NCBI GenBank assembly: GCA_020721445.1
Contig: DYMU01000025.1
Span: 1-32,584, forward strand
Origin: Gemmobacter nectariphilus
GTDB taxonomy: Bacteria > Pseudomonadota > Alphaproteobacteria > Rhodobacterales > Rhodobacteraceae
Length of the DNA stretch: 32,584 nt
Reading direction: 5' to 3'
Below, in pieces: positions 2,723-21,939 of this stretch (position 1 is its first letter; every line of letters starts with the position of its first letter). The notes under the pieces were generated by a model. That model worked only from the letters and a program-made list of their open reading frames with translations. It did no database searches and had not been told where the DNA came from. The position numbers and the translations under genes are program-made.

Positions 2723-2822
2723 GCGCTGCCACCCCTTAATCGCCGTGGTCGGCAACCTAGCAGACCACGCGCGCGGGGAAAGGCCTGCTCACGCCAAGTT
2801 GCATCCGGGCAGCGATTCGCGG

Positions 2823-2850: not shown

Positions 2851-2856
2851 GAAGGC

Positions 2857-3142: not shown

Positions 3143-3580
3143 TTACAACCGCGACAGCACCACCCCGCCCGCCACCAGTGCCACCGCCAGAACCCGGGTC
3201 AGGCTGATCTGCTGCACCGGCAGCCCAAAGGCCCCCAGCGCATCCAGCAGCAAGGCCCCGGTCATCTGGCCCAGAATCAGCGCAGCCATCGCGGTCACCA
3301 CGCCGATCGACGACACCCCCCAGACCACCGACCAGACGTAATAGGCCCCAACCACCCCGCCCAGCCATTGCCACCACGGCACGTTTGCCAGACGCCCATA
3401 GGCACTGCCATTGCCCACAAGGCTGAGCGCAAACAAAAGCACAAAGCCGACACCAAACGACACCGCCGCCGCAGGCAGGACCGCGCCCAGACTGCGCCCC
3501 AAGGCACCGTTGACCGGGGCCTGAACCGCAATGGCAACACCGCCCAGAAGGATGGCCAGAATGGCGGGAAGCTGGGTCAT
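3143..3580 (-). CDS. YdcZ/DUF606-type DMT superfamily permease
   Basis: A 145-residue, very hydrophobic protein matching the short DMT_YdcZ (DUF606) type of drug/metabolite transporter. Five hydrophobic segments can be drawn, at about residues 4-24, 31-55, 70-90, 93-115 and 123-143. It has the typical opening QAPVNGALGRSLG and the central VTAMAALILGQMTGALLLD. Members have about 140 residues and probably act as dimers; their substrates are unknown. The ATG at 3580 follows AGGAG at good distance. It lies 79 bases downstream of the DUF167 gene on the same strand, with a tandem repeat between them. Confidence 0.85.
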   Translation of the reverse strand: MTQLPAILAILLGGVAIAVQAPVNGALGRSLGAVLPAAAVSFGVGFVLLFALSLVGNGSAYGRLANVPWWQWLGGVVGAYYVWSVVWGVSSIGVVTAMAALILGQMTGALLLDALGAFGLPVQQISLTRVLAVALVAGGVVLSRL

Positions 3581-3630
3581 GAAGGCTCCTGTCAGCGGTG
3601 GGTCAAAGTTGGTACAAGCACAGGCCGGGT

Positions 3631-3670
3631 CAGTCGGGTACGGATCAGTCGGGTACGGATCAGTCGAGGC
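3631..3670. repeat. 15 bp tandem repeat across the DUF167 stop codon
   Basis: CAGTCGGGTACGGAT occurs at 3631-3645 and again at 3646-3660. A third, partial copy, CAGTCGAGGC (3661-3670), lies inside the last codons of the DUF167 gene. Read on the minus strand, the segment holding the final Asp codon and the TGA stop is repeated downstream of the true stop. The array lies between the DUF167 and YdcZ-type genes. Confidence 0.88.
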
Positions 3671-3914
3671 GAAAGGTCTTGTCGCGGGCCGTTGCGCCGC
3701 GGATCAGCGTCAGCCGGGTCTTGGCCACGCCAAGCGCATGGGCCAGGGCCTCGGCCACCGCCGCATTGGCGCGGCCCTCATCGGCAGGTGCCGTCACGCC
3801 GATGCGAAACACCCCCGCATCGCGGCTGACCCCCGGCTTTTTGGCGCGCGGCGTGGCCCGCACCGCAAACTCGGCCCCCGGGACGGCAAGCTCTGCCCAT
3901 GCGCCTTTTGTCAT
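3660..3914 (-). CDS. DUF167 family protein (YggU/UPF0235)
   Basis: An 84-residue protein of the DUF167/UPF0235 (YggU) family. The core is typical: FAVRATPRAKKPGV, then FRIGVTAPADEGRANAAVAEALA, then LGVAKTRLTLIRGATARDKTFRL. The family is small, cytoplasmic and of unknown function, often near YggT or other membrane proteins. The length is slightly shorter than many members but complete across the conserved core. AAGGAA lies eight bases before the ATG at 3914. It diverges from the nitroreductase gene and is followed by the YdcZ-type permease on the same strand. Its stop codon lies inside a tandem repeat that extends downstream. Confidence 0.88.
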   Translation of the reverse strand: MTKGAWAELAVPGAEFAVRATPRAKKPGVSRDAGVFRIGVTAPADEGRANAAVAEALAHALGVAKTRLTLIRGATARDKTFRLD

Positions 3915-4031
3915 CACGCTGTTCCTTGTGCCGTGGCACCTTGGCGCAAGCTGTGGGGTGATGCAACGGGGCGGCTGGCAATCTGCCGGCACAAGCCCTA
4001 GCCTTGGCGCCAAAGCCGTTCGGAGATGCCG

Positions 4032-4604
4032 ATGCCTGACCCAAACCCTGCCGTGCTGGACCACCTTGCCAACCGCCGATCCCCCAATGCCAAGACCTTC
4101 ACCGGCCCGGTGCCCGACCGCGATGCGGTGATGCAAATCCTGACGCTTGCCGCCCGCGTGCCTGATCATGGCAAGCTGGAGCCGTGGCGGATGGTGGTGC
4201 TGGACCGTGCCGCCATGGCCCGACTGGCCGATCTGGCCGAGGCGCGGGCACGCGAACTGGGCGCTGATGCCGAAAAGATCGACAAGGGCCGTGGCCAGTT
4301 TGACCGCGGGCAACTGGCCGTGGTGGTGATCGCCTCGCCCAAGCCCGCGCCCAAGGTGCCGGTGGCCGAACAACTGCTGTCGGCGGGGGCACTGTGCATG
4401 AACATATTGCACGCGGCATCGGCCCTTGGCTGGGGCGCGTGCTGGCTGACCGGCTGGACCTCGCATGATGCGCCGTTCTGTGCGCAGGCCTATGGCTGCA
4501 CGGGTGACGAGACCGTGGCCGGCATCATCCACATCGCCACCCCCGGACCGCTGGCCGCGGACCGCCCGCGCCCCGATGTGGCCAAATTGACAAGCTGGGC
4601 CTGA
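4032..4604 (+). CDS. Nitroreductase family protein (YdjA-like)
   Basis: A 190-residue flavoenzyme of the short nitroreductase type resembling E. coli YdjA. The N-terminal RRSPNAKTF and the PDHGKLEPWRMVVL segment form the FMN phosphate and isoalloxazine site in this family. The C-terminal half has the AEQLLSAGALCMNILHAASALGWGACWLTGW helix-turn that packs against FMN in the dimer. Members bind FMN and reduce nitro or quinone-like compounds with NAD(P)H; the natural substrate is not predictable. The ATG at 4032 is preferred over one six bases earlier because GGAG at 4022-4025 is then correctly spaced. The EI24 gene follows after three bases, so the two are probably co-transcribed. Confidence 0.88.
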   Translation: MPDPNPAVLDHLANRRSPNAKTFTGPVPDRDAVMQILTLAARVPDHGKLEPWRMVVLDRAAMARLADLAEARARELGADAEKIDKGRGQFDRGQLAVVVIASPKPAPKVPVAEQLLSAGALCMNILHAASALGWGACWLTGWTSHDAPFCAQAYGCTGDETVAGIIHIATPGPLAADRPRPDVAKLTSWA

Positions 4605-4607
4605 CGC

Positions 4608-5303
4608 ATGATTTTTGCCGATTTCCTCAGGGCTCTGCGACAAATGACGGACCGGCCGTTTCGCCGGGTGCTGCTGATCGGCGTGCTGCTGTCGGTGACC
4701 TTGCTGGTGGCGGTCTATGCAGGCTTTCTGGCGCTGATCCAGATGGTCACGCCCGAGACGATCGACATTCCCTTTGTCGGCCCGGTCGGGGGCCTTGATA
4801 CGCTGCTGTCCTGGGGATCAGCCGTGTTGATGATCGGGCTGTCGGTGTTTTTGATGATGCCGGTGGCATCAGCCTTTACCGGGCTGTTTCTGGAAGACGT
4901 GGCGCAAGCGGTGGAAGACAAGCACTACCCCGCCCTGCCGGCAGTGCCGCGCATTCCGCTGATGGACGGGATCATCGACAGCGCCAATTTCTTTGCGCTG
5001 CTGATTGCGGTCAACGCCTTGGCGCTGATCCTTTACGCCTTTGCCGGGCCGTTCGTGCCGGTGGTGTTCTGGCTGGTCAACGGCTTCTTGCTGGGGCGCG
5101 AGTATTTCACGCTGGTCGCCATGCGCCGCCTTGGCCGGGCGGGGGCACGGGCGCTGCGGGCCCGGCATTGGGGCCAGATCTGGCTGGCGGGCACCCTGAT
5201 GGCGGCGCCCCTGTCGGTGCCGCTGGTCAACCTGCTGATCCCGGTGCTGGGGGCGGCCACATTCACCCACCTGTTCCACCGGTTGAACGGCCCCGGCCGC
5301 TGA
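4608..5303 (+). CDS. EI24 domain membrane protein (CysZ-like)
   Basis: A 231-residue membrane protein with the EI24/CysZ fold. Hydrophobic segments lie near residues 20-46, 61-88, 122-150 and 189-222. The central region, with VNGFLLGREYFTLVAMRR, resembles the conserved core of this family. E. coli CysZ mediates sulfate uptake, but many alphaproteobacterial EI24 proteins have no proven role and no sulfate-assimilation genes are nearby, so I do not give a symbol. The ATG is three bases after the nitroreductase stop, which suggests translational coupling. It converges on the acyl-CoA synthetase, and the gap holds a GC-rich hairpin element. Confidence 0.82.
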   Translation: MIFADFLRALRQMTDRPFRRVLLIGVLLSVTLLVAVYAGFLALIQMVTPETIDIPFVGPVGGLDTLLSWGSAVLMIGLSVFLMMPVASAFTGLFLEDVAQAVEDKHYPALPAVPRIPLMDGIIDSANFFALLIAVNALALILYAFAGPFVPVVFWLVNGFLLGREYFTLVAMRRLGRAGARALRARHWGQIWLAGTLMAAPLSVPLVNLLIPVLGAATFTHLFHRLNGPGR

Positions 5304-5324
5304 CCGCGCCTGTGGGCCAAACGC

Positions 5325-5374
5325 GGACCGGGGGCCAGCCCCCGGACCCCCGGGGTATTTCTGCCAAGAGGAAA
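5325..5374 (+). repeat. Dispersed hairpin element, copy A
   Basis: The perfect hairpin CCGGGGGC-CA-GCCCCCGG (5328-5345) is followed by ACCCCCGGGG, then GTATTTCTGCCAAGAGGAAA (5355-5374). Near-identical architecture recurs at 15299-15356 in the opposite orientation and at 30793-30843, with a diverged version at 24612-24735. Here it lies between two convergent genes, where it could serve as a transcription terminator or RNA end-stabilising structure. Confidence 0.85.
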
Positions 5375-5393
5375 GGTGCCGGCGCTTTTGCTT

Positions 5394-7283
5394 TCAGGCC
5401 GCCCAGTCCCATGGATTGGTAAAGCTGCCCAGCACATGCGCCACGCGGCCATCATCAACCTCGCCCGACTTTTTAAGCTTGGCCACCAGCCCGCGCTTTT
5501 TGTCCTCAGCCACCGACTCGACCGTGGCTGGCACCCCGGCCTCGGCCAGGGCCGCATCAAACACGCGGGCAATCGCCATCCGGCGCAGATCAGGCTTGAA
5601 CACCTTGCCCACGGCGGTTTTCGGCAGTTCCGGCAACACTATGATATGCTTGGGCAGCGCCGCGCGTTCGTGGATGTGCTTGGCGGCATAGGCCATCAGA
5701 TCGGCCGCCGTGGCGGTGGCACCCTTGACCAGTTCGACATAGGCCACCGGCAGTTCGCCGGAATGCACATCGGGCTGGCCGATGGCGCCGACCACCGCCA
5801 CCGCCTCGTGGCCCATCAAGGCCTCTTCGATGATGGCGGGGTCGATGTTGTGGCCGCCGCGAATGATCAGATCCTTGGCGCGCCCGGTGATGAACAGATA
5901 GCCGTCAGGGTCGATCCGGCCCAGATCGCCGGTGCGCAAAAAGCGGTCTTCGGCGAACAGATTGTGGTTCTTGTCTTCCTCGGTATAGGTCGACCCCTCA
6001 TAGACGCCGGGGTTGGCGACACAGATCTCGCCCACCTCGTCCACGCCACAGGTCCGAAACCCGTCGTGCGTCTGCACCAGAATGCGCACATGGGTATAGG
6101 GGAACGGCATCCCGACCGAGCCGATCTTCTTGATGCCCTCGGGCGGGTTGATCGACACGAGGCAAGTGCATTCGGTCAGGCCATAGCCTTCGACAATGTC
6201 GATCCCGGTCAGCTTCTTGAACCGGTTGAACAACTCGACCGGCAGCGGCGACGAGCCGGAAAACGCGCTGCGCAGGCTGCTGATATCGGCATCGACCGCG
6301 CGCTGCATCAGCGCCGACAGCGCGGTCGGCACCGTGATCATGTAGGTTGCCTTGTAGCGTTCGATCAGCTTCCAGAAATTGTCGAACACCCCTTCCCCGC
6401 GATAGCCCTGCGGCGTGGGAAACACCACATGCGCGCCCGAGGCGATCATGCCCATCAGAATGGGATAGGCGGCAAAGACGTGGAACAGCGGCAGGGGGCA
6501 CATCACCACATCGTCGGGCTTGAACAGCAACTGCTGGCCCAGCCAGCCGTTGTAGACCATGCCCGACACCTTGTGCTGCGCCACCTTGGGCATGCCAGTG
6601 GTGCCGCCGGTGTGGAAATAGGCCGCCACCCGGTCATCCGGCACATCGGCAAAGGTCAGCCGGTCGGCGGGCTGGCGGGCCAGTTCTGCGGCAAAGGATT
6701 TCACATTGGCGGCGTGGTGGATCGGGTTTTTCGGCCGGATCAGCGGCGCGATATACTTCTTGGCCCCCGACAGATAGCGCACCAGATCGACCTCCAGCAC
6801 GGTCTTGACCGATGGCGCGTGGCGCACGGCCTCGGCCACCTTCTGCGCCATATCACTTTTCGGCAGTGCCTTCAGCGTGACCACGACATGCGCCTTGGTT
6901 TCGCGCAGGATGGCGCTGATCTGTTCGGGTTCCAGCAGCGGGTTGATCGGGTTGACGATCCCCGCCACCGCGCCGCCAATCAGCGTGACCACGGTTTCAG
7001 GGGCATTGGGCAGCACGTAGGCCACCACATCCTTGTCCCCCACACCAAGGCTGCGAAACAGATTGGCGGCCTGGGTGACCTGAGCGTGCAATTCGGCCCA
7101 GGTCAGCATGACGCGCTTGGTGTCTGGGCCTGACAGCAACTGATAGCTGACCGCCGGACGCGATCCATGGGCGGCGCGGGTTGCCGACACGAACTCATAC
7201 ATGGTGCGCGCAACCGGGCGCTGCGCCCACGGCATTTCCGCTTCAATACTGGCGATATCCGCCTTTGTGACGAATTTTCCCAT
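5394..7283 (-). CDS. Acyl-CoA synthetase (AMP-binding family)
   Basis: A 629-residue ANL-superfamily enzyme that activates a carboxylic acid through an acyl-adenylate and transfers it to CoA. The motifs appear in order: phosphate-binding HTGGTTGMPK (224-233), GYGLTE (366-371), the hinge-region TGDLGRIDPDGYLFITGR (451-468), and the catalytic-lysine region PKTAVGK (Lys560). The chain-length preference is not predictable. An extra segment of roughly 60 residues between the N-terminal fold and the 224 motif makes it longer than short-chain synthetases, which points to medium- or long-chain or other bulky substrates. GGGGAGGAAACC directly before the ATG at 7283 decides the start. It lies 140 bases downstream of the terminator of the BON-LysM gene, so it is likely transcribed from its own promoter. 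Confidence 0.9.
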   Translation of the reverse strand: MGKFVTKADIASIEAEMPWAQRPVARTMYEFVSATRAAHGSRPAVSYQLLSGPDTKRVMLTWAELHAQVTQAANLFRSLGVGDKDVVAYVLPNAPETVVTLIGGAVAGIVNPINPLLEPEQISAILRETKAHVVVTLKALPKSDMAQKVAEAVRHAPSVKTVLEVDLVRYLSGAKKYIAPLIRPKNPIHHAANVKSFAAELARQPADRLTFADVPDDRVAAYFHTGGTTGMPKVAQHKVSGMVYNGWLGQQLLFKPDDVVMCPLPLFHVFAAYPILMGMIASGAHVVFPTPQGYRGEGVFDNFWKLIERYKATYMITVPTALSALMQRAVDADISSLRSAFSGSSPLPVELFNRFKKLTGIDIVEGYGLTECTCLVSINPPEGIKKIGSVGMPFPYTHVRILVQTHDGFRTCGVDEVGEICVANPGVYEGSTYTEEDKNHNLFAEDRFLRTGDLGRIDPDGYLFITGRAKDLIIRGGHNIDPAIIEEALMGHEAVAVVGAIGQPDVHSGELPVAYVELVKGATATAADLMAYAAKHIHERAALPKHIIVLPELPKTAVGKVFKPDLRRMAIARVFDAALAEAGVPATVESVAEDKKRGLVAKLKKSGEVDDGRVAHVLGSFTNPWDWAA

Positions 7284-7426
7284 GGTTTCCTCCCCTGATG
7301 GCCCCGTTGATGGGGGGCCTGTTCTTCCCTGTCCGAAACCATGGTGGCAAATGCAGGCTTTGCCAAGCACCCCTGCGTCACGAAAACGCAACGTCAAAGT
7401 CACGCATGGGCGGCGGCAGGCATAAA

Positions 7427-7453
7427 AAAAGGCGGCCACCGGGGCCGCCTTTT
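7427..7453 (-). terminator. Rho-independent terminator of the BON-LysM gene
   Basis: A perfect 11-bp stem (AAAAGGCGGCC paired with GGCCGCCTTTT, loop ACCGG) lies 20 bases past the stop of the minus-strand gene. Read on the minus strand it is followed by seven consecutive T, a classic intrinsic terminator. It separates this gene from the acyl-CoA synthetase. Confidence 0.88.
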
Positions 7454-7473
7454 GAAGCACAAAAGCGCCAGCC

Positions 7474-7908
7474 TTATTCAGGGATGCGCAGCATCTGGCC
7501 CGGATAGATCTTGTCCGGGTGGGTCAGCATCGGCTTGTTGGCCTCATAGATTTCCATGTAGCGATTGGCATTGCCCAAGGTGGCCTTGGCGATGCCTGAC
7601 AGCGTGTCGCCCTTTTCGACCGTGTGAAACCGCGGCGCGGGACCATCTTCATCGTCTTCGGCCTCGACCTCGGCCACGCCGGCCACGTTGCCTACGGCCA
7701 GAATGATCTTTTCCTTCATCTCGGGCGACACAGCCTTGCCCTCGACCTTGACCTTGTCGCCGTCAACCGAGATCTCGACGCCGGTCGTGTCCAGCCCCAG
7801 ATCCTTGATTTCGGCCTTCAGTGCATCGGCTTCCGGCAGCGTCGCGGCCTCGGCCTTGCCCCCGAACAGCGATTTTCCAGCGTCCTTGACGAAACTCCAC
7901 ACACCCAT
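7474..7908 (-). CDS. BON-LysM protein (Kbp/YgaU-like)
   Basis: A 144-residue protein close in length and order to E. coli Kbp (YgaU, 149 residues). The N-terminal WSFVKDAGKSLFGG leads into a BON domain at about residues 28-88 (VEISVDGDKVKVEGKAVSPEMKE). The C-terminal LysM domain spans about residues 95-143 (HTVEKGDTLSGIAKATLGNANRY to the end, with IYPGQMLRIPE). E. coli Kbp is a cytoplasmic potassium-binding protein. No signal peptide is visible here, which fits that rather than a secreted cell-wall protein. AAGGAG before the ATG at 7908 fixes the start. A candidate promoter lies upstream and a strong terminator follows, so it appears monocistronic. Confidence 0.9.
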   Translation of the reverse strand: MGVWSFVKDAGKSLFGGKAEAATLPEADALKAEIKDLGLDTTGVEISVDGDKVKVEGKAVSPEMKEKIILAVGNVAGVAEVEAEDDEDGPAPRFHTVEKGDTLSGIAKATLGNANRYMEIYEANKPMLTHPDKIYPGQMLRIPE

Positions 7909-7969
7909 GGCATACTCCTTTTCCACGTTTCCCAGGGTCTGGCCCCAGGCCAGGCCGCAAGGGAGCAAA

Positions 7970-7999
7970 AGTCTATGCCCATCTGGTGCGACAACGCAA
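7970..7999 (-). promoter_or_regulatory. Candidate promoter of the BON-LysM gene
   Basis: On the minus strand TTGCGT (7999-7994) and TAGACT (7975-7970) are 18 bases apart. The -10 box would place initiation about 55 bases before the ATG. Match and spacing are reasonable but untested. Confidence 0.4.
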
Positions 8000-8057
8000 T
8001 GACAGGTTGACCCGGATCACCGGGAGAAACGGCCGGCGTTTCGCCAAGCTGACGCCG

Positions 8058-9839
8058 CTAAAGCGCACCGTCAGTGAATTGCAGGCGCGCCAGACGGGCA
8101 TAAAGCCCGCCCTCGGCCACCAGATCATCATGCTTGCCCTGTGCCACGATCTTGCCCTGATCGAACACCACGATCCGGTCGGCCCGTTTGACCGTGGCCA
8201 GACGGTGCGCCACCACCAGCGTGGTGCGGCCCTTGGCCAGCTTTTCGACCGCCATCTGCACCAGCCGTTCCGATTCGGCATCCAGCGCGCTGGTGGCCTC
8301 ATCCAGCAGCAGCACCGGCGCGTCGCGCAAAATCGCGCGGGCAATCGCCACCCGCTGTTTCTGCCCGCCCGACAGCATCACCCCACGCTCGCCCAGATAG
8401 CTGTCATAGCCCTGCGGCAGCGCGCTGATGAACTCATGCGCGGCGGCGGCACGGGCGGCGGCCTCGACCTCGGCATCACTCGCCTCGGGGCGGCCAAAGC
8501 GGATGTTGTCGCGCGCCGACATGGCAAAGATCACCGGGTCTTGCGGCACCAGTGACAGGCTGCGACGGAAATCGTCGCGCGCCAGATCGCGCAGGTCGAT
8601 GCCATCCAGCCGCACAGCGCCACCTTGCGGGTCATAGAACCGCATCAGAAGTTGCAAAATCGTGGTCTTGCCCGCACCTGACGGGCCAACCAGCGCCACC
8701 GTCTCGCCCGGGGCCAGATGCAGCGTCACCCCGTCCAGCGCCGAGGTTTCGGGCCGCGCCGGATAGCGGAACGTGACCGCGTCAAACACGATCTCGCCGC
8801 GCACCGGGCGCGGCAGCGCCTTGGGCTGGGCAGGGTCATTGACCGGGTCTTTGGCATGCAGCAATTCGATCAGCCGCTCGGTCGCGCCCGAGGCCCGCTG
8901 CAACTCGCCCCAGATTTCCGAAAGTGCCCCAACCGACCCTGCCACCATGATCGCGTAGATCACGAACTGGATCAACTCGCCCGGGGTCATCGCGCCGGCC
9001 CGCACATCGCGCGCGCCCATCCAAAGCACCCCGACAATCCCGGTAAACACCAGAAAGATCACGATGATTGTCATGACGGCACGGGTGCCGATGCGGGTCT
9101 TGGCGGATTGAAAACTTTTCTCGGTCACTTCGGCAAAGGCGGCGCGGGTCTGGCCTTCGTGGGTAAAGGCCTGCACCGTCTGCACCGATGACAACGCCTC
9201 GGACGCCGAGCCCGACGAGGACGCGATCCAGTCCTGGTTTTCGCGGCTGAGGCGGCGCAGCTTGCGCCCCAGAAACACGATCGGCAGCACCACCGTCGGC
9301 ACGATCAGCAAGACCAGCGCCGCCAGCTTGGCCGAGGTCAGGAACATCAGCACCAGCCCGCCCAGCAGGATCAGGAAGTTGCGCAAGGCGATGGAAATCG
9401 ACGAGCCGATCAGCGACAGGATCAGCGTGGTGTCGGTGGTGATCCGGCTGAGCACCTCGCCGGTCAGGATGCGTTCAAAGAAGGCGGGCGACAGGCCAAG
9501 CACACGGTCAAACAGCGCGCGGCGAATGTCGGCCACCACCCGTTCCCCCAACCGGGTAACAAGGTAATAGCGCAGGCCCGAGCCAAAGGCGAACAACCCG
9601 GCCACCACGATGGCCGCGCCGAAATACAGGTCAAGGATGCCGGCACTGGCGTTGAAATTGTCCACCACCCGGCGCACCGCAAGCGGCAGGATCAGACTGA
9701 CCGCCGCTGTCAGCACAAGGGCCAGCAGCGCCAGTGCAACCAGACCGCGATAGGGGGCCATGAACGGCACCAGCCCGCCCAACGCGCTGACCCGCTTCGA
9801 GGTCGCCCGCTCTTCAAGGATCGTTGTCGGTTTTGCCAT
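8058..9839 (-). CDS. MsbA-like ABC exporter, fused permease-ATPase
   Basis: A 593-residue half-transporter of the ABCB/MsbA type. The N-terminal membrane domain (about residues 25-310) has six hydrophobic segments. The nucleotide-binding domain (about 340-585) has Walker A GPSGAGKTT, signature LSGGQKQR, Walker B VLLLDEATSALD and the switch histidine in AHRLAT, so it looks competent for ATP hydrolysis as a homodimer or heterodimer in the inner membrane. Relatives export lipids, drugs or peptides; nothing nearby defines the substrate. The ATG at 9839 is preferred to one 15 bases upstream because AGGA is well placed. It diverges from the haloacid dehalogenase gene across a 138-base gap. Confidence 0.92.
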   Translation of the reverse strand: MAKPTTILEERATSKRVSALGGLVPFMAPYRGLVALALLALVLTAAVSLILPLAVRRVVDNFNASAGILDLYFGAAIVVAGLFAFGSGLRYYLVTRLGERVVADIRRALFDRVLGLSPAFFERILTGEVLSRITTDTTLILSLIGSSISIALRNFLILLGGLVLMFLTSAKLAALVLLIVPTVVLPIVFLGRKLRRLSRENQDWIASSSGSASEALSSVQTVQAFTHEGQTRAAFAEVTEKSFQSAKTRIGTRAVMTIIVIFLVFTGIVGVLWMGARDVRAGAMTPGELIQFVIYAIMVAGSVGALSEIWGELQRASGATERLIELLHAKDPVNDPAQPKALPRPVRGEIVFDAVTFRYPARPETSALDGVTLHLAPGETVALVGPSGAGKTTILQLLMRFYDPQGGAVRLDGIDLRDLARDDFRRSLSLVPQDPVIFAMSARDNIRFGRPEASDAEVEAAARAAAAHEFISALPQGYDSYLGERGVMLSGGQKQRVAIARAILRDAPVLLLDEATSALDAESERLVQMAVEKLAKGRTTLVVAHRLATVKRADRIVVFDQGKIVAQGKHDDLVAEGGLYARLARLQFTDGAL

Positions 9840-9977
9840 CTGGTCCTGCCTCATTCCCCGGCCACGGGTTTAGGCAACCAAAGCGGCAGGGGCAAGCATC
9901 TCTGCACCTGCCCCCCCTTTTCGTTACCGCCGCCCTGTGCGACGGTTCGCGCAGAGGACCGCTTGGGGGGGGGCCAG

Positions 9978-10637
9978 ATGCGACCACGCGCCTTTGTCTT
10001 TGATGCTTATGGCACACTGTTTGACGTGACTTCCGCTGCGCGCGACGCCGGGGCCGGGCCGCATTGGCCGCGGCTGGCCGAGGACTGGCGACGCAAGCAG
10101 CTGGAATACACCTGGTTGCGCGCGATCATGGGGGCGCATGCCGATTTCGCCACCGTCACCGCCGATGCGCTGGACTGGGCGCTGGAGGCGCAGGGCCTTG
10201 GCACCGACCGCACCCTGCGCGCCCGCCTGCTTGCGCTTTATGACCGGCTGTCGCCCTTCCCCGAGGTCTTGTCCACGCTGACTGCGCTGAGGGCCAAGGG
10301 CGCGCGCATGGCGATCTTGTCGAACGGATCGCCCGCCATGCTGGACAGCGCGGTGCAGGCTGCGGGCATCGGCGGGCTGGTCGAGGCGGTCTTGTCGGTC
10401 GAAGCGGTCGGCATCTACAAGCCGCACCCGTCGGTCTATGCGCTGGTCGAGGCCCGGATGGGCGTGCCGCCGTCGCAGGTGATGTTCATTTCGGCCAATG
10501 GCTGGGATGTGGCGGGGGCGGCGCGGTTCGGCTTTGCCACCGCCTGGGTCAACCGTCTGGGTGCCCCGATCGACCGGCTGCCGCATCTGCCCGCCCGCAT
10601 TCTGCCCGACCTGACGCCCTTGCCCGACTACGCCTGA
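9978..10637 (+). CDS. Haloacid dehalogenase, type II
   Basis: A 219-residue HAD-superfamily hydrolase of the (S)-2-haloacid dehalogenase type, which displaces halide from short 2-haloacids to give the 2-hydroxyacid. FVFDAYGTLFD carries the nucleophile Asp9. LSNGS is the second motif, VGIYKPHP supplies the conserved lysine, and SANGWDVAGA is the Asn-Gly-Trp-Asp signature that separates type II dehalogenases from phosphatases of the same fold. Length matches the family. The ATG at 9978 follows a run of G residues. It is the first gene of a tightly spaced plus-strand series. Its stop codon lies inside a 16-bp tandem duplication. Substrate is inferred from family only. Confidence 0.87.
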   Translation: MRPRAFVFDAYGTLFDVTSAARDAGAGPHWPRLAEDWRRKQLEYTWLRAIMGAHADFATVTADALDWALEAQGLGTDRTLRARLLALYDRLSPFPEVLSTLTALRAKGARMAILSNGSPAMLDSAVQAAGIGGLVEAVLSVEAVGIYKPHPSVYALVEARMGVPPSQVMFISANGWDVAGAARFGFATAWVNRLGAPIDRLPHLPARILPDLTPLPDYA

Positions 10638-10661
10638 AAGACCCCACGCCTGAAAGACCCG
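10630..10661. repeat. 16 bp tandem duplication over a stop codon
   Basis: ACGCCTGAAAGACCCC (10630-10645) is followed at once by ACGCCTGAAAGACCCG (10646-10661), identical except for the last base. The first unit contains the dehalogenase stop TGA. The second ends two bases before the ATG of the next gene and therefore forms its ribosome-binding region. Confidence 0.92.
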
Positions 10662-10663
10662 CC

Positions 10664-11521
10664 ATGCCCCCATTCTTCACGGCCCCGGATTCTACGGCCC
10701 CGGAATTCTTCACCGCCCCCGACGGCGCACGCCTTGCCTTTCGCGATCAGGGCGCAGGGTTGCCGGTGCTGTGCCTGCCCGGCCTGACCCGCACCATGGG
10801 CGATTTCGACTATGCGGCCCCGCACCTGCCACCCTGCCGCCTGATCCGGATGGATTATCGCGGCCGTGGCCAAAGCCAATGGACCGGCGAGGCAACCTAC
10901 ACCGTGCCGCAAGAAGGCCGCGATGCGCTGGCCCTGCTGGATCACCTGGGGGTAGACCGCGCCGCCATCATCGGCACCTCGCGCGGCGGGCTGATCGGCA
11001 TGTATCTGGCCGCCACTGCCCGCACCCGCCTGCGTGGGCTGCTGTTGAACGACGTAGGCCCGGTGATCCATGCGCCGGGGCTGGACCGTATCCTTGCCTA
11101 TCTGGGCCGCAACCCTGCTGCCCGCAGCCATGCGGCCCTGGCCAAGACCCTGCCCGGCCTGATGCCCGGCTTTGCCAATGTGCCCGACAGCCGTTGGCTG
11201 GACGAGGCACGGTTGCACTACGCGCAAACGCCGGACGGGTTGCGCATCACCTATGACCCAGCCCTGCGCCCGGCCTTTCTGACCGCCTTCCAAGGCGCGA
11301 CGCAAGACCTGTGGCCGTTGTTCGATGCCTGCGCCGGCCTGCCGCTGGCGCTTTTGCGCGGCGCAAACTCGGACCTGTTGTCGGGGGATGTTGCCGCGCA
11401 GATGCGCCGCCGCCGCCCCGACATGCTGTTTGCCGAAATCCCCGACCGCGCGCATATCCCGTTTCTGGATGAACCTGCCTCGCTGGCGGTGATCCACGCC
11501 TTCCTGAAAGCCTGCGCATGA
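10664..11521 (+). CDS. Alpha/beta hydrolase
   Basis: A 285-residue alpha/beta hydrolase of unknown substrate. Residues 104-108 are GTSRG, the nucleophile elbow with Ser106. The oxyanion region is CLPGLTRT (37-44), MDYRGRGQS (63-71) is the usual strand after it, and the C-terminal DRAHIPFLDEP supplies the catalytic histidine. The acid is probably in the LRGANSDLLSG segment. The N-terminus is odd: FFTAPDSTAPEFFTAPDG is an internally repeated peptide made by a 15-bp tandem duplication just after the start codon. A start further in is not available as a nearby ATG, so I keep 10664. The TGA stop overlaps the ATG of the next gene, indicating coupled translation. Confidence 0.85.
   Translation: MPPFFTAPDSTAPEFFTAPDGARLAFRDQGAGLPVLCLPGLTRTMGDFDYAAPHLPPCRLIRMDYRGRGQSQWTGEATYTVPQEGRDALALLDHLGVDRAAIIGTSRGGLIGMYLAATARTRLRGLLLNDVGPVIHAPGLDRILAYLGRNPAARSHAALAKTLPGLMPGFANVPDSRWLDEARLHYAQTPDGLRITYDPALRPAFLTAFQGATQDLWPLFDACAGLPLALLRGANSDLLSGDVAAQMRRRRPDMLFAEIPDRAHIPFLDEPASLAVIHAFLKACA
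10676..10705. repeat. 15 bp tandem duplication inside the start of a hydrolase gene
   Basis: TTCACGGCCCCGGAT (10676-10690) and TCTACGGCCCCGGAA (10691-10705) are adjacent and in frame, and a third, more diverged copy follows to 10723. They encode the repeated peptide TAPD/TAPE/TAPD in the first 20 residues of the hydrolase. Confidence 0.75.
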
Positions 11522-12474
11522 CCCCGGCCCAGATCGACGCCGCCGCCCAGCGCCTGAAGGGTCATGCCCGTGTCACGCCCTTGCTGAATGCGCCGTTGCT
11601 GGACGCGGCCTTTGGCAAGCGCATCTTCCTCAAGGCCGAATGTCTGCAATTGACCGGATCGTTCAAGTTTCGTGGCGCATGGTCAGCCGTTTCGGCCCTG
11701 CCGCCCGGCACAAGGGGCGTGCTGGCGATGTCGTCTGGCAACCACGGTCAAGGCGTGGCGCTTGCCGCCAGCCGGCACGGCCTGACTGCGGTGGTGGTGA
11801 TGCCCGCTGACGCGCCGCAGGTAAAGATCGCCAACACCCGCGCCTATGGGGCCGAGGTGGTGCTTTACGACCGCGCCACCGATGACCGCGACACGCTTGC
11901 CGCCAGCCTGTGCGCTGACCGGGGGCTGACCCTGATCAAACCGTTTGACGATGCGCAGGTGATCGCCGGGCAAGGCAGCGTCGGGCTGGAAATCGCAACG
12001 CAAGCCCGCGACGCCGGAATAGATGCGGCGCAGGTTCTGGTCTGCTGTGGCGGCGGCGGGTTGTCGTCGGGCATCGCGCTGGCGCTGGAAGCCCGCGCCC
12101 CGGGCCTGCGCGTCCACACGGTGGAACCTGTGGGGTTTGACGACATGGCGCGCTCGCTGGCAAGCGGAACAGACCAGCGCAATGCCACCACCACCGGCTC
12201 GATCTGCGACGCGACCCTGACCCCCACCCCCGGCACCCTGACCCTGCCGATCCTGCACCGCCTTGCCGGGCCGGGCATGACGGTAACTGACGATCAGGCC
12301 CTGCACGCCATGGCCCTTGCCTTCACCCACTTCCGCCTTGTGCTGGAACCGGGCGGGGCGGTCGGCCTTGCTGCCGCGCTGTTTCACCCCACCTCTGATC
12401 CGGTGATCTGTGTGGCCAGTGGCGGCAACACCGACCCCGCCAGCTTTGCCCTTGCCCTGTCACGGTTTGCCTGA
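11518..12474 (+). CDS. PLP-dependent threonine/serine dehydratase
   Basis: A 318-residue fold-type II PLP enzyme. GSFKFRGA holds the PLP lysine (Lys50), SSGNHGQGVAL binds the substrate carboxylate, and the glycine loop CCGGGGLSSG binds the cofactor phosphate. The C-terminal SGGN closes the cofactor site. There is no C-terminal ACT regulatory domain, so it resembles catabolic threonine dehydratases, serine racemases and hydroxyaspartate ammonia-lyases rather than biosynthetic IlvA. The ATG overlaps the stop of the preceding hydrolase, and the next gene starts three bases after its stop, so all three are probably one transcript. The exact amino-acid substrate cannot be told from sequence. Confidence 0.88.
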   Translation: MTPAQIDAAAQRLKGHARVTPLLNAPLLDAAFGKRIFLKAECLQLTGSFKFRGAWSAVSALPPGTRGVLAMSSGNHGQGVALAASRHGLTAVVVMPADAPQVKIANTRAYGAEVVLYDRATDDRDTLAASLCADRGLTLIKPFDDAQVIAGQGSVGLEIATQARDAGIDAAQVLVCCGGGGLSSGIALALEARAPGLRVHTVEPVGFDDMARSLASGTDQRNATTTGSICDATLTPTPGTLTLPILHRLAGPGMTVTDDQALHAMALAFTHFRLVLEPGGAVGLAAALFHPTSDPVICVASGGNTDPASFALALSRFA

Positions 12475-12477
12475 GCC

Positions 12478-13263
12478 ATGCCCCTGATCTTCTTTCCCGA
12501 CCTGCGGCTGAATGCCGAACTCTCTGGCCCGGCCTCGGCGCCGCCCGTGGTGCTGCTGCATGCTCTGGGCACCAACCTGCGGCTGTGGGATGGGGTTGTG
12601 TCGCTGATGCCGCGCCACCGCATCCTGCGGGCCGACATGCGCGGCCATGGGCTGTCGGACGTGCCACCCGGCCCCTATGCCATGGGCGCGCTGATCCATG
12701 ATGTCGAACGCCTGATGGCGCATTTCGCCCTGAGTGACGCCGTGGTGGTCGGCCTGTCGATCGGCGGCATGGTGGCGCAAGGGTTGGCCACCAAGCGGCT
12801 GGATCTGGTCCGCGCCATGGTGCTGTCAAACACCGCCGCCCGCATCGGCACGCCCGCGCAATGGCAGACCCGGATCGCTGCGGTGCAGGCGGACGGGCTG
12901 GAGGTGGTGGCCGACGCAACGCTGGAGCGGTGGTTTGGCCGCCGCTGGCGCGATCTGCCCCAGATGCCCGCCTGTCGCGCCATGCTGCTGGCCACCCCGG
13001 TTCAGGGCTGGATCGGCGCCGCCGCTGCAATTGCCGGCACCGATTTCTACACCCCCACCGCCGCGCTGACCCTGCCGACGCTGGCCATCGCCGGGGCCAA
13101 TGACGGATCAACCCCGCCCGATCTGGTCAAGGAAACCGCCGATCTGATCCGGGGCAGCCGATTTGCGCTGCTTCGCGGCGCGGGCCATCTTCCGATGGTG
13201 GAAAAGCCCGCCGACTATGCCACCCTTCTGACAGAGTTTCTGGAGAGCATCGGCCATGTCTGA
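12478..13263 (+). CDS. 3-oxoadipate enol-lactonase-like hydrolase
   Basis: A 261-residue alpha/beta hydrolase closest in layout to PcaD, which opens 3-oxoadipate enol-lactone in the protocatechuate and catechol branches of the beta-ketoadipate pathway. Ser94 lies in GLSIGG, the acid is in ANDGSTPP, and the histidine in GAGHLPMVEKP. DMRGHGLSD and SNTAARIGTPAQW are features I associate with the PcaD group. No other protocatechuate genes are visible here, so the substrate may be a different lactone or ester and I withhold the symbol. The gene begins three bases after the dehydratase stop and overlaps the next gene by eight bases, indicating an operon. Confidence 0.78.
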   Translation: MPLIFFPDLRLNAELSGPASAPPVVLLHALGTNLRLWDGVVSLMPRHRILRADMRGHGLSDVPPGPYAMGALIHDVERLMAHFALSDAVVVGLSIGGMVAQGLATKRLDLVRAMVLSNTAARIGTPAQWQTRIAAVQADGLEVVADATLERWFGRRWRDLPQMPACRAMLLATPVQGWIGAAAAIAGTDFYTPTAALTLPTLAIAGANDGSTPPDLVKETADLIRGSRFALLRGAGHLPMVEKPADYATLLTEFLESIGHV

Positions 13264-16695: not shown

Positions 16696-17313
16696 ATGGC
16701 CAAGACACCGACCAAGACCGAAGCGCGCCGCGAAGACCTGCGTGCGCGCCTGACCGACATTGCCGAGCGGGTGATTGCCGAACAGGGTCTGCCCGCGCTG
16801 AAAGCCCGCGATCTGGCGGCCGAGGCTGGCTGTTCGGTGGGGGCGATCTACAACGCCTTTGCCGATCTCAATGATCTGGTGATGGCGGTAAACGGGCGCA
16901 CCTTTCAGCAGCTTGGCGCAGCGGTCACCGCATCGCTTGACGGCCGCGCCCTGCCACCGCGCGATGCGCTGATCACCATGTCACACGCCTATCTGCACTT
17001 TGCCGCGACCCATACCCGGTCATGGCGGGCGCTGTTCGATCTGGAAATGTCAACCGATGCCGCCGTGCCGGACTGGTATCTTGCCGAACTGGCCAAGCTG
17101 TTTGCCATCATCGCAGCCCCCTTGCGCCAGATCTTTCCTGATTGGCCGGCGGCCCAGATCGACCTAATGACGCGGGCGCTGTTTTCATCGGTGCATGGCA
17201 TCGTACTGCTGGGTCTGGAAAGGCGCATCTCGGGCGTACCGACCGACCAGATCGAACGCATGATCGCCGTGGTGCTGTCGAACCTTACGTCAGCACCGGA
17301 GGCCGCGACCTAA
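16696..17313 (+). CDS. TetR/AcrR family transcriptional regulator
   Basis: A 205-residue one-component regulator. The N-terminal helix-turn-helix lies at about residues 33-66, with LKARDLAAEAGCSVGAIYNAF as its core. The C-terminal helical domain would bind a ligand and form the dimer; it resembles the WHG/TetR_C type with a conserved Trp-rich HTRSWRALFDLEM stretch. GAGG lies before the ATG at 16696, and an earlier in-frame ATG at 16654 would put the promoter and operator inside the coding region, so I reject it. It ends the plus-strand catabolic cluster and is the only regulator visible there, so it may control those genes as well as itself. Confidence 0.88.
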   Translation: MAKTPTKTEARREDLRARLTDIAERVIAEQGLPALKARDLAAEAGCSVGAIYNAFADLNDLVMAVNGRTFQQLGAAVTASLDGRALPPRDALITMSHAYLHFAATHTRSWRALFDLEMSTDAAVPDWYLAELAKLFAIIAAPLRQIFPDWPAAQIDLMTRALFSSVHGIVLLGLERRISGVPTDQIERMIAVVLSNLTSAPEAAT

Positions 17314-17351: not shown

Positions 17352-17882
17352 TTAATCAACCTGCTGCGGAACGGCACCAAGCCTTGACGTCAGCGCGTCA
17401 AGGTCAAGATCAAGCCGCCGGATATCAAGCTCGTCGAGGAACCTTGCCTCCATCCGGCTGATCGGTCCGGGCAACAGCGCGATATGGCCGGTGCTTGATC
17501 GTTTGGCAATCTGGCGGGCATAGATGCGCAACAACTGGTCATCAAACCGGCAGCCCAGAAACAGGAACGGCCGGCCGGTGCGGCGGTTTTGCACCTCGGC
17601 CGGGATCGGGGTCTGGATGTCGATCTCGGTCAGCACCTCGACATAGTCGCTGTCCGACATCAGGAAGGATGACCCGGGCCGCGCCAGACCATAGGGCTTG
17701 TAGATCAGCGTCGTCCACGCCGGATCGGGGGCCACCACCTCGGTGCCCCGTGCATCATAGGCGCGGGTAAAGGCATCGACCAGCCCGCCCGCCCGGCTGA
17801 CGCCCTGCACCAGCCCCCAATCGCCGCCCCGCCGGCCAAAGGCGGTCAGCAGCGTGTCGTCATACCAGGTGTCCACCACCAT
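17352..17882 (-). pseudogene. SIR2-family protein, 5' truncated
   Basis: The 176 residues match the C-terminal part of a SIR2-like protein of about 300 residues. Family features seen are VVDTWYDD, DWGLVQGVSRAGG, SDSDYVEVLTEIDIQTPIP, FLFLGCRFDDQLLRIYARQIAKRSS and the end FLDELDIRRLDLDLD. The N-terminal NAD-binding region is missing. Homology stops at the ATG near 17882, and within about ten bases the sequence becomes an rnfC fragment on the other strand, so the gene was cut by a rearrangement. From memory, this subtype often lies near nitrogen-fixation genes. A shortened protein could still be made, but no catalytic function is likely. Confidence 0.7.
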
Positions 17883-17890
17883 CGGCGGGC

Positions 17891-18429
17891 GGATATCTGA
17901 CCTGCGATGACCACCTGATGCGCGAGAACGCCGAAGAACTGGTCGATGGCGCGGGCATCATGGGCCGAGCCCTGGGCGTGCACCGCATCATCATCGCCAT
18001 CGAGGCGAACAAGCCCGACGCGATCAGCGCGCTGCGCCGCTTCAAGCAGGCTCTGGGCATCCCGGTGAGCATTTCCGTGGTGCCGACGCAATAACAGATG
18101 GGGTCGGCCAAGCATCTGGTGCTGGCGGTGACCGGCAAGGAAACCCCGGCGCGGGCCCGCATCGCCGAAATCGGCGTGCTGGTCTACAACGTCGGCACCG
18201 CCCATGCGGTGCATCTGGCGGTGCGCTACGGCGAGCCGCTGATTTCGCGCATCGTCACCGTGTCCGGCAGCGCGGTGGCGCGCCAGGCCAATGTGCCGGT
18301 GCTGATCGGAACCCCGGTTGCCGATGTGCTGAACTTTTGTGGCGGCCTTGTGGGCGACCCGGACCGGGTGCTGCTGGGCGGGCCGATGATGGGCCTGCCG
18401 GTGCAGAACCTGCGGGTGCCGGTGGTCAT
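17891..18429 (+). pseudogene. rnfC: rnfC fragment with internal stop, truncated at both ends
   Basis: The reading frame from 17891 matches the middle of RnfC, the NADH-oxidising subunit of the Rnf electron-transport complex. It runs YLTCDDHLMRENAEEL, IIIAIEANKPDAI, VSISVVPTQ, then GSAKHLVLAVTGKETP, VGTAHAVHLAVRYGEP, VLIGTPVADVLNFCGGL and LLGGPMMGLPV. The first part of RnfC is absent. A TAA at 18092-18094 replaces the expected Tyr codon without a frameshift. After LRVPVV the frame meets the tail of rnfE, so the two C-terminal 4Fe-4S clusters are gone. The product could not work. Confidence 0.88.
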
Positions 18430-18674
18430 CCTTGCTGCTGGGGCCGCAGTTCGGCTTTCTGGAACAGACCATTTTCCCCGATTATCCGGGCTTTCTGATC
18501 CTGATCCTGCCACCGGGCGGGTTCATCGTGCTGGGGCTGATCCTGGCTACGAAAGCGGCATTTGACGCCCGCAAACCCGGCACTGAGCAGGAAATCGCCG
18601 CGCGCAGGACCGAACGGGTGTTCACGGCGGCAGGCAGCCTTGACGCAGTATCTGACACAAGCGAGGCATCATGA
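18430..18674 (+). pseudogene. rnfE: rnfE 3' fragment
   Basis: From about 18430, one frame off the rnfC fragment, the sequence encodes the end of RnfE: LLGPQFGFLEQTIF, then FLILILPPGGFIVLGLILATK, followed by a charged tail. E. coli RsxE ends with a comparable LLG...FLLAMLPPGAFIGLGL region. Only the last membrane segment of about six remains, so the protein is lost. Its stop overlaps the rnfH start as ATGA, the spacing expected in an intact operon. The junction at about 18427-18432 implies a deletion of the end of rnfC, all of rnfD and rnfG, and most of rnfE. Confidence 0.85.
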
Positions 18675-18928
18675 TCGTCGGCGTCGCCTATGCCAAACCC
18701 ACCGTGCAGGTCTGGAAACACGTCGATGTGCCGGAAACCGCAACCGCGCGCGACGCCATCGACCGCTCGGGCCTGCTGGCGCAATTTCCTGAAATCGACC
18801 TTGCGGTGATGAAGATCGGCATCTTCGGGCAGATCTGCACGCTGGACCGGCCGCTGAAGGCAGGCGACCGGGTCGAGATCTACCGCCCCATCCACCCCGA
18901 GGCCGAACTGCTTGAAAAAAAGCGCTGA
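18671..18928 (+). CDS. rnfH: RnfH family protein
   Basis: An 85-residue complete RnfH (UPF0125) protein with the small beta-grasp fold. The markers are VAYAKPTVQVWKHVDVP near the start, ARDAIDRSGLLAQFPEID in the middle and LKAGDRVEIYRPIHPE at the end. The role of RnfH is not settled; in Rhodobacter it belongs to the rnfABCDGEH operon. Here it is the only intact member. It has no stop or frameshift and keeps its ATGA overlap with the rnfE remnant. It may be a leftover that has not yet decayed or may have a role independent of the complex. The flavoprotein gene follows 33 bases later. Confidence 0.88.
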   Translation: MIVGVAYAKPTVQVWKHVDVPETATARDAIDRSGLLAQFPEIDLAVMKIGIFGQICTLDRPLKAGDRVEIYRPIHPEAELLEKKR

Positions 18929-18961
18929 CCTGCCCCCCTTCGCCCCAAAGGAGACCGTCCG

Positions 18962-19960
18962 ATGTTCACGCCCAGCCGCCGCCACTTTGCCCTTGGTCTG
19001 ATGGCCGCCACCATGACGGCCGGCACCGGCCTTGCGATCTTGCCAAAGGACCGGCTGGCCGTTGTCGGCGGTGGCCCGGCGGGCGCCCATGCCGCCCTGG
19101 CCTTGCGGGCTGCCCATCCCAAGGCGACGGTTCTGTTGCTGGAACGCGACCCCACACGCCTTGGCCGCGGCCTTGATGCGGCGCCGGCGCGCTTTGACCG
19201 GCCGGGGGCAGGTGTCAGCCTTGACACGCTGCGCCGCGCCGGGGTCGAGGTGGTGCTGGATGACGTGACACAAATCGACTGGACCGCCGCCCGCCTGGCG
19301 CTGTTCTCGGGCCGGCGGCTTGCCTTTGACCGGCTGTTTGTGGCCCCCGGCACCGCGCCGCGCCCCGAATCGATCGCCGGGCTGGATGCCATGGCCCGCC
19401 ACGCCTCGCCCGCCGCCTGGGGCACCCCGCATGAGGCGCGCCGGCTGACAGCGCAACTGGCTGCGCTGCGCGACAACGGCCATGTGGTGCTGCGCCTGCC
19501 GCCAAGGGGCCAAAGCCATCCGCAAGCAGCACTTGACCGCGCGCTGACCCTGGCGCGCCTGCTTGCCATCCGGCGGACCGCAGCCCGGCTGACCGTGCTG
19601 GACGAAAGCACCGACAACCGCCTTGCCACCATTTTTGCACAACAGGCGGCGGATCAGCGCCTTGCGGGCCAGACCGCATGGCTGACCGCGCAGGACGGCG
19701 CGTTGGTGCGCGCGGTCGACGTCCGCCGGGGCTGGATCGAGACCGACGCCGGACGGCTGACCGCCGATGTGGTGAACTTCATCCCGCCACTGCAAGCCGG
19801 GGCCATCGCCCGCAGCGCCGACCTGACCGACGCCAGCGGTTGGTGCCCCTGCACGGCCACCGGCCATTCCACACACTGCACCGAGGCCGTCATCCTGGGC
19901 GACGCCCGCAAGGGCGCGGTGCGGACACTCGCGGCTGCGCTGGAGTCGGCACGGGTGTAA
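18962..19960 (+). CDS. FAD-dependent oxidoreductase related to flavocytochrome c sulfide dehydrogenase
   Basis: A 332-residue flavoprotein, shorter than the roughly 420 residues usual for FccB/SoxF-type proteins. SRRHFALGLMAATMTAG at the N-terminus looks like a twin-arginine export signal. LAVVGGGPAGAHAALALRAA is the FAD dinucleotide fold, and LAFDRLFVAPGTAPR and VNFIPPLQAGAIA match later conserved segments. The CPxSN motif, whose cysteine contacts FAD in sulfide dehydrogenases, is not present, nor is the partner cysteine; RLPPRGQSHPQ stands in its place. The C-terminal flavin-binding domain is short. Sulfide oxidation is therefore unlikely. AAAGGAG precedes the ATG. It follows rnfH closely and may have been in the same operon. 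Confidence 0.72.
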   Translation: MFTPSRRHFALGLMAATMTAGTGLAILPKDRLAVVGGGPAGAHAALALRAAHPKATVLLLERDPTRLGRGLDAAPARFDRPGAGVSLDTLRRAGVEVVLDDVTQIDWTAARLALFSGRRLAFDRLFVAPGTAPRPESIAGLDAMARHASPAAWGTPHEARRLTAQLAALRDNGHVVLRLPPRGQSHPQAALDRALTLARLLAIRRTAARLTVLDESTDNRLATIFAQQAADQRLAGQTAWLTAQDGALVRAVDVRRGWIETDAGRLTADVVNFIPPLQAGAIARSADLTDASGWCPCTATGHSTHCTEAVILGDARKGAVRTLAAALESARV

Positions 19961-20139: not shown

Positions 20140-21939
20140 TCAGGAATCCATCTTCAGCGCCGAAATAAACGCCTCTTGCGGGATCTCGACCTTGCCGAAC
20201 TGGCGCATCTTCTTCTTGCCGGCCTTTTGCTTGTCCAGCAGCTTGCGCTTTCGCGTGGCGTCGCCACCATAGCATTTCGCGGTCACGTCCTTGCGCATGG
20301 CACTCAACGTCTCACGCGCGATCACCCGGGCGCCAATCGCGGCCTGGATCGGGATCTTGAACATATGCCGGGGGATCAGTTCTTTCAGCTTTTCCACCAT
20401 CGCCCGGCCCCGGGCCTCGGCACGGTCGCGGTGGACCATCATCGACAGGGCATCCACCGGTTCCTCGTTCACCAGGATCGACATCTTGACCAGAAAATCC
20501 TCACGGTATTCGCTGATCACATAGTCAAAGCTGGCATAGCCCTTGGTGACCGATTTCAGCCGGTCGTAGAAATCGAACACCACCTCGGCCAACGGCAGGT
20601 CATAGACCACCATGGCGCGGTTGCCGGCATAGGACAGGTCCATCTGGATGCCGCGGCGGTCCTGGCACAGCTTGAGGATATCGCCGAGGTATTCGTCGGG
20701 CACCATGATGGTGGCCTTGATCCGCGGTTCGGTGATGTGGTCGATATAGGTCAGGTCGGGCATGTCGGCGGGGTTGTGCAGATCGCGCACCTCGCCGTCC
20801 TTCATGTGCAGCTTGAACACCACCGAAGGGGCTGTGGTTATCAGGTCAAGGTCATACTCACGCTCCAGCCGGTCGCGGATCACCTCAAGGTGCAACAGGC
20901 CCAGAAAGCCGCAGCGAAAGCCAAAGCCAAGGGCGGCACTGGTTTCCATTTCGGAACTGAACGACGCATCATTCAGTTGCAGCTTTTCGATGGCGTCGCG
21001 CAGGTCTTCGAAATCATTGGCATCGACCGGAAACAGCCCGCAGAACACCACCGGTTGCGCCGGCTTGAAGCCGGGCAGCGGGGTTTCGCAACCCTTGCGC
21101 TCGGTGGTGATGGTGTCGCCCACCCGGGTGTCGCGCACCTGCTTGATCGAGCCGGTCCAGATGCCGATCTCGCCCGGCCCCAGCTCGTCAATATCCACCA
21201 TCTGCGGCTTCAGCACCGCCAGCTTGTCAACGCCGTAGACCGCGTTGGTCTGCATCATCTTGATGCGGTCGCCCTTGCGGATCACCCCGTCGATGACGCG
21301 GATCATCACGACCACGCCCAGATAGCTGTCATACCACGAATCAACCAGCATCGCCTTCAACGGCGCATCGCGGTCGCCCTTGGGCGCGGGCAGGCGGGTA
21401 ACGATTGCCTCCAGCACGTCAGGGATACCAAGGCCGGATTTGGCCGAGATGTTGATGGCTTGCGACGCATCCAGCCCGATCACATCCTCGATCTGCTGCT
21501 TGACCCGTTCGGGCTCGGCTGCCGGCAAGTCGATCTTGTTCAGGACCGGCACAATCTCGTGCCCCGCATCCAGCGCCTGATAGACGTTGGCCAGTGTCTG
21601 CGCCTCAACCCCCTGCGACGCATCCACCACCAGCAGGCTGCCTTCAACGGCCCGCATGCTGCGTGACACTTCATAGGCAAAGTCAACGTGGCCGGGGGTG
21701 TCGATCAGGTTCAGGATATAGGTCTTGCCATCCTTGGCCGGGTATTCGATCCGCACCGTGTTGGCCTTGATGGTGATGCCACGTTCGCGTTCGATATCCA
21801 TGCTGTCCAGCATCTGCGCCTTCATATCGCGCGCAGCCACCGTTCCGGTCAACTGAATGAGCCGGTCGGCAAGGGTGGATTTGCCGTGGTCGATATGGGC
21901 CACGATCGAGAAATTGCGGATGAGATCAAGCTGGGTCAT
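20140..21939 (-). CDS. lepA: Elongation factor 4 (LepA)
   Basis: A 599-residue translational GTPase of exactly the usual LepA length. AHIDHGKST (14-22), DTPGH (80-84) and NKID (134-137) are the G1, G3 and G4 motifs. The C-terminal LepA-specific region has [25 protein letters not shown] followed by the conserved IPQEAFI. It binds the ribosome and is thought to promote back-translocation or correct ribosome assembly under stress. The start at 21939 gives the family N-terminus; an ATG three codons earlier is equally possible, as neither has a strong ribosome-binding site. It converges on the flavoprotein gene. Confidence 0.97.

Follow-up and report, generated by a model that had tools for sequence, protein, structure and literature searches.

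The segment at positions 17352–19960 of the Gemmobacter nectariphilus DNA analysed here is very probably the remnant of a nif-rnf island like nif cluster A of Rhodobacter capsulatus, reduced by two deletions and a TAA stop. The window, i.e. the whole stretch under analysis, is the entire contig C36 (32,584 bases) of a 3.07-Mb genome that comprises 53 contigs and has a completeness rating of 99.93%. The original prediction had placed a decayed rnf operon at 17352–18928. The pieces it named are there, but the range proved too short, as an FCSD-like gene at 18962–19960 belongs to the remnant too.

Gene pieces and junctions

From left to right, the region contains tetR (plus strand), the 3′ part of SIR2 (minus), the middle of rnfC, the tail of rnfE, rnfH and the FCSD-like gene (all plus) and a LepA-type gene (minus). 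The left flank is a TetR-family regulator gene (16696–17313, plus strand; PF00440, E 3e-8). The right flank (20140–21939, minus strand) is a gene that we take to be LepA-type from recognition of its sequence. Both flanks are common to a congener, G015, hereafter referred to as the sister. A SIR2-family C-terminus on the minus strand had been proposed, and a Pfam profile search bore this out, with PF13289 (SIR2_2) matching 17352–17882 at E 1.5e-18. The piece, the 3′ part of a SIR2_2 gene of nif-operon type, occupies 17352–17893. It is 89% identical to the C-terminal part of the whole SIR2 of the sister and lacks the first ~105 codons present in that 281-aa copy.

The middle part of rnfC follows on the plus strand (17894–18428; TIGR01945 positions ~168–343 of 435). 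The pieces on either side of the stop were searched separately, and both match TIGR01945: 17894–18091 at positions 168–231 (E 1.2e-17) and 18098–18433 at positions 234–343 of 435 (E 1.1e-39). The second piece is 88% identical to RnfC of a Frigidibacter sp. MAG (locus L014). Codon alignment with 20 named rnf loci revealed that the TAA at 18092–18094 is indeed a nonsense codon, standing where every one of them has Tyr (TAT in 11, TAC in 9). A minus-strand open frame at 17846–18472 that covers the rnfC piece was rejected as spurious, the plus strand being the one that matches RnfC.

The tail of rnfE (~18427–18674, plus strand) is joined to rnfC out of frame, as had been predicted. Positions 18435–18674 match PRK12405 (RsxE) at 164–220 of 231 with E 2e-9 and TIGR01948 (rnfE) with E 7.2e-5; a Pfam search of the tail returned no family at E 0.1. 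The tail is 71% identical to RnfE of L014.

Both junctions were located by alignment with relatives, and the overlaps given here are estimates because the ancestral bases are approximated from those relatives. At the junction of deletion 1 (17894–17896), ~3 bases (TAT) are common to both sides: the window matches the sister's SIR2 through 17896 and the rnfC of L014 and L015 from 17894 onward. At the junction of deletion 2 (18427–18428), ~2 bases (CA) are shared, rnfC homology stopping at 18428 and rnfE homology starting at ~18427. Compared with Frigidibacter L014, deletion 2 removed ~2.7 kb (L014 ~10331 to 13008). Gene order and strands agree with those of intact relatives, which excludes a chance arrangement. 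The two deletions that had been proposed are upheld.

The rnfH gene (18671–18928, plus strand, 85 aa) is complete, as had been stated. It contains a whole Ub-RnfH domain (PF03658, E 2.1e-30 over 1–77 of 83), scores 68.9 bits with NCBIfam PRK01777, under the cut-off of 75 for that family, and is at most 89% identical over its full length to RnfH from intact loci. Next to it lies a whole gene for an FCSD-like flavoprotein of 332 aa (18962–19960, plus strand; PF21706, E 9.6e-12; PF07992, E 6.6e-11). Among the 20 named rnf loci, 17 (L014–L029 and L033) have such a gene after rnfH. As for the other three, L030 ends ~200 bases past rnfH, L032 ends in rnfD, and L031 has no FCSD. In G257 (L094) the FCSD-like gene lies at the opposite side of the cluster, adjoining rnfF. 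Both this protein and those of the 15 relatives examined start with an RR motif, presumably a twin-arginine signal. The L014 copy matched no NCBIfam family at E 1e-10. Judged by its sequence context, the gene looks like a cluster member and a steady, so far unnamed companion of Rnf in Rhodobacteraceae.

The SIR2 gene as a member of a nif operon

Matches to the SIR2 piece were found in 13 genomes besides its own among 394 family genomes searched. One of them, in G177, is weak (33%, E 6.5e-4); it was excluded from the context count and included in the Fisher table below. In all 12 loci examined, whose gene labels come partly from L092, itself one of the 12, SIR2 adjoins nifT in the company of nifZ, an LRV-FeS gene and nifB, and it terminates a nifB-nifZ-nifT-SIR2 operon. 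The nifA gene is visible in 9 and nifH in 7 of the 12, several of the stretches or contigs ending earlier. Across the 393 other family genomes, rnfC and SIR2 occur together in 5, rnfC without SIR2 in 1, SIR2 without rnfC in 8, and neither in 379 (Fisher p 1e-7, with kinship of the genomes ignored).

The layout of one collinear relative, G269 (L092), consists of a minus-strand run of SIR2, nifT, nifZ, the LRV-FeS gene, nifB, nifA, prx, fdxD, rnfF, a 108-aa frame, fdxC and fprA. A plus-strand run of rnfA, B, C, D, G, E, H and FCSD comes after fprA. SIR2 and rnf thus have the same orientation there as in the window, and the cut points are separated by ~12.6 kb that hold nif and rnf genes. The published account of R. 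capsulatus nif cluster A, in the portions drawn on here, lists a SIR2 family protein (Rcc03262), NifT (Rcc03263), nifB1 (rcc03266), NifE (Rcc03280), FdxC (Rcc03285), FprA (Rcc03286) and rnfA (rcc03287), and gives the operons nifB1-rcc03265-nifZT-rcc03262 and rnfABCDGEH (PMC6925177). A figure legend for Rhodovulum likewise shows a nif operon with an LRR protein, nifZ, nifT and a SIR2-like protein (PMC9412634).

Since SIR2 is a nif-operon gene, deletion 1 took a nif region, beyond rnfA, rnfB and the start of rnfC. The proposal that this deletion was limited to rnfA, rnfB and the 5′ ends of SIR2 and rnfC is therefore disfavoured. For the same reason the rnfABCDGEH order, which had been said to explain everything, accounts for the rnf pieces but not for the join of SIR2 to rnfC. 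As in cluster A, SIR2 and rnf are found at one place on opposite strands; the nif genes that would lie between them are gone here.

The course of events may be pictured as follows. The ancestral layout would have had SIR2-nifT-nifZ-nifB on one side and rnfABCDGEH with the FCSD-like gene on the other. This layout is drawn from R. capsulatus and a nifN scrap in the sister (see below), as nifN does not lie between SIR2 and rnf in G269. Deletion 1, internal to the island, would have joined the interior of SIR2 to the interior of rnfC, removing the intervening nif genes; on the G269 layout its span would cover nifT, nifZ, the LRV-FeS gene, nifB, nifA, prx, fdxD, rnfF, fdxC, fprA, rnfA and rnfB. Deletion 2 would have joined rnfC to the rnfE tail out of frame, and the TAA would have arisen in what remained of rnfC. 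The exact content of the lost island and the order of these events we infer, and both deletions may have occurred by recombination at the very short overlaps. Rnf would have been the electron-supply arm of the nitrogen-fixation island, and the cell would no longer be able to build either the Rnf pump feeding nitrogenase or nitrogenase itself. The pieces of rnfC and rnfE can have no function now that the nif genes and the membrane subunits are missing, while rnfH and the FCSD-like gene would persist as intact frames without partners.

Losses in the genome and in the sister species

The loss of an Rnf complex, as originally proposed, is borne out at the level of the genome. RnfA/E-type (PF02508) and RnfD-type (PF03116) subunits had no match in the own genome, while each of the two profiles was found in 4 of 14 control genomes. 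RnfB and RnfG are absent by position between rnfC and rnfH in the window. RnfC is incomplete, being left with ~168–343 of 435 positions plus the TAA; a search of the genome for a second match to the rnfC piece returned none. Three other PF01512 matches in the genome (open frames of 436, 517 and 570 aa) are not matched by the RnfC piece. No second intact copy was found in the genome for rnfC, rnfH, PF02508, PF03116, nifH, PF00148-type nif or nifB.

The nifH model gave no match over its cut-off in any of 16 genus genomes, and its top match in the own genome is BchL. Four PF00148 matches here and four in the sister were considered as nifDKEN and rejected, being BchB, BchN, BchY and BchZ in both. 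A search of the 16 genus genomes for nifB was positive for the sister alone, the own genome having none. The nifH, nifDK, nifEN and nifB set of a Mo-nitrogenase diazotroph is thus not present in this genome. The rnfC piece and rnfH, sought in 15 congeners, were found in none of them; among the 393 other family genomes, the rnfC piece has a match in 6.

The sister genome is rated 91% complete, and its contigs C73 and C40 both end in the region of interest. C73 carries tetR (92% identical to that of the window) adjoining the whole SIR2, with nifT, nifZ and nifB (TIGR01290, 665 bits) directly 5′ of SIR2. At the contig end, ~250 bases from nifB, lies the 3′ end of a gene (L105:1-200, G015:C73) whose product matches DNA adenine methylases on 15 plasmid records, all less than 60% identical; 7 of 10 such records among the matches listed are 39–55 kb. 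A mobile element may bound the sister's decay near this end. The nifB of the sister (L105:447-1940, C73) is an orphan, accompanied by nifZ, nifT and SIR2, no nifH or nifDKEN having been found in that genome, and it could mislead gene-based surveys of diazotrophs.

The first ~76–107 bases of contig C40 (L106:1-107) may be the terminus of a repeated insertion element; after them comes a scrap of nifN. The scrap comprises 51 bases with 84% identity to R. capsulatus (L029), whose gene is NifN by TIGR01285 (683 bits). As a peptide, it is 61% identical over residues 143–170 of a 461-aa protein of L016 (E 2.5e-5). The scrap and FCSD are on opposite strands, an arrangement shared with L029, and the join falls at about codon 22 of FCSD, which thus lacks ~21 codons. 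A LepA-type gene, its protein 99% identical to that of the window, comes next. Since the nifN scrap is fused to FCSD, the deletion in the sister spanned nifN to FCSD. SIR2 and nifB are whole only in the sister, FCSD and rnfH only here, so the SIR2-rnfC and nifN-FCSD deletions were separate events. The rnf part is missing from the sister, so deletion 2 and the stop seen here could predate the split. Function may equally well have been lost once, at an early stage, with each line then cleared on its own, or lost twice. Either the island was transferred into the common ancestor of this species and the sister, or it was lost in the other 14 congeners.

No empty site was demonstrated in congeners. 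Of the six besides the sister in which tetR has a close match, five have tetR and lepA on separate contigs, and in the sixth (G005) the two genes are 238 kb apart. The tetR orthologues G001:C14:43539-44144 and G006:C1:1158985-1159590 contain one TGA inside the matched stretch, which may simply be an earlier natural end. In G014 (L122, G014:C22) the block carrying the genes at 1988–10664 of the window has the LepA-type gene close to its other end; with the gene displaced in this way, gene order near the site is fluid in the genus. Base composition of the window (0.658), left flank (0.665), lepA (0.602), SIR2 piece (0.646), rnf pieces (0.655), rnfH (0.624) and FCSD (0.72) gave no clear mark of foreign origin.

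In a tree of the joined RnfC/E/H pieces, the window stands beside L014 (support 0.997, branches 0.130 and 0.131), with R. capsulatus SP108 and R. viridis next. The dN/dS values against L014 are 0.29 and 0.23 for the rnfC pieces, 0.31 for rnfE and 0.09 for rnfH; the corresponding values for the intact pair L014-L015 are 0.40 and 0.33, 0.28 and 0.20. Between the own genome and the sister, dN/dS is 0.31 for FCSD (0.42 for L014-L015), 0.24 for the SIR2 piece and 0.02–0.18 for six neighbouring genes. Codon statistics and tree branches, in which a signal of decay was sought, pointed neither to relaxed selection nor to faster change in the dead pieces: either the decay is young compared with the divergence, or the test was underpowered. 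The pseudogene reading is based on the deletions, the break in frame and the stop codon, sequence change being silent on the matter.

Alternative explanations and known systems

Decay of an rnf operon whose SIR2 neighbour had no connection with it, deletion 1 having removed nothing beyond rnfA, rnfB and the 5′ ends of SIR2 and rnfC, would fit the order and strands as far as rnf reaches. However, SIR2 sits behind nifT of the nifB operon in 12 of 12 loci, appears in 0 of the 20 named rnf loci within stretches that extend at most 10 kb upstream from the match, and has nifT, nifZ and nifB directly 5′ of it in the sister. With SIR2 a nif-operon gene in relatives, this extremely improbable model was dropped. 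It is also very unlikely that one or both joins, as seen in the assembly, are chimeric. The overlaps amount to just ~2–3 bases, and the words of 12 to 20 bases centred on the joins are not repeated within the window. Furthermore, the joined parts keep the arrangement and orientation of a single ancestral cluster, an intact copy that might have served as chimera partner was not found, and both flanks agree with the sister.

A further possibility, otherwise compatible with the remnant of a nif-rnf island that we favour, is that selection retains rnfH and the FCSD-like gene for a function unconnected with Rnf and nitrogenase. Both frames are whole, and dN/dS is 0.09 for RnfH against L014 and 0.31 for FCSD against the sister, below the 0.42 of intact L014-L015, but the greater part of this divergence may be older than the loss, and the FCSD of the sister is beheaded. 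In A. vinelandii, RnfH is cofactor-free and contacts RnfB and the C-terminal helix of RnfC, according to the portion of that study drawn on here (PMC12174285). The RnfC C-terminus is gone here, leaving RnfH without that partner. Such retention is on balance unlikely. The fuller scenario, in which the two sisters dismantle the same nif-rnf island independently and RnfH and the twin-arginine-type FCSD-like protein are kept as a pair for a purpose independent of both the Rnf pump and nitrogenase, is quite unlikely.

The remnant of a nif-rnf island is a case of ordinary gene-cluster loss by deletion, unusually legible and documented from two sides. It makes the dismantling of a nitrogen-fixation island readable, two parts of the island being in place here and other survivors in the sister. 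The species pair could serve to study why diazotrophy is lost in phototrophic Rhodobacteraceae. The case also advises caution, as neither an isolated rnfH or nifB nor a fragment of RnfC is a basis for inferring Rnf or nitrogenase. Papers describing this remnant, or a paired decay of nif and rnf in Rhodobacteraceae, were sought, and none was found among the best 10–20 matches listed.

In R. capsulatus, nif cluster A, as described in the portions of the source used here, holds SIR2 (Rcc03262), nifT, nifZ, nifB, nifA, nifE, fdxC, fprA and rnfABCDGEH together (PMC6925177), whereas all that is left of such a cluster in the window is the SIR2 3′ part, pieces of rnfC and rnfE, a whole rnfH and the FCSD-like gene. 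In L015 and L029, rnf and fprA are on opposite strands. As described in the portion consulted, Rnf is driven by an ion gradient and sends electrons to ferredoxin for nitrogenase, a role proposed for R. capsulatus that has found support in A. vinelandii (PMC12174285). The closest RnfC/E/H to those of the window are in the Frigidibacter MAG (L014), which, unlike the window, has an intact rnfABCDGEH with FCSD, nifH and nifD. The remnant in the sister resembles that of the window in its tetR and lepA flanks and differs in its whole SIR2, nifT, nifZ, nifB and nifN scrap, with no rnfC or rnfH found. Beyond the Rhodobacteraceae, Paenibacillus, which belongs to a different phylum, offers a parallel. 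There nif clusters were gained and lost within the genus, and mobile elements and prophage near the nif genes have been proposed to be involved; the nif cluster is compact, and an rnf remnant is not described in the portion of that paper drawn on here (PMC3961195).
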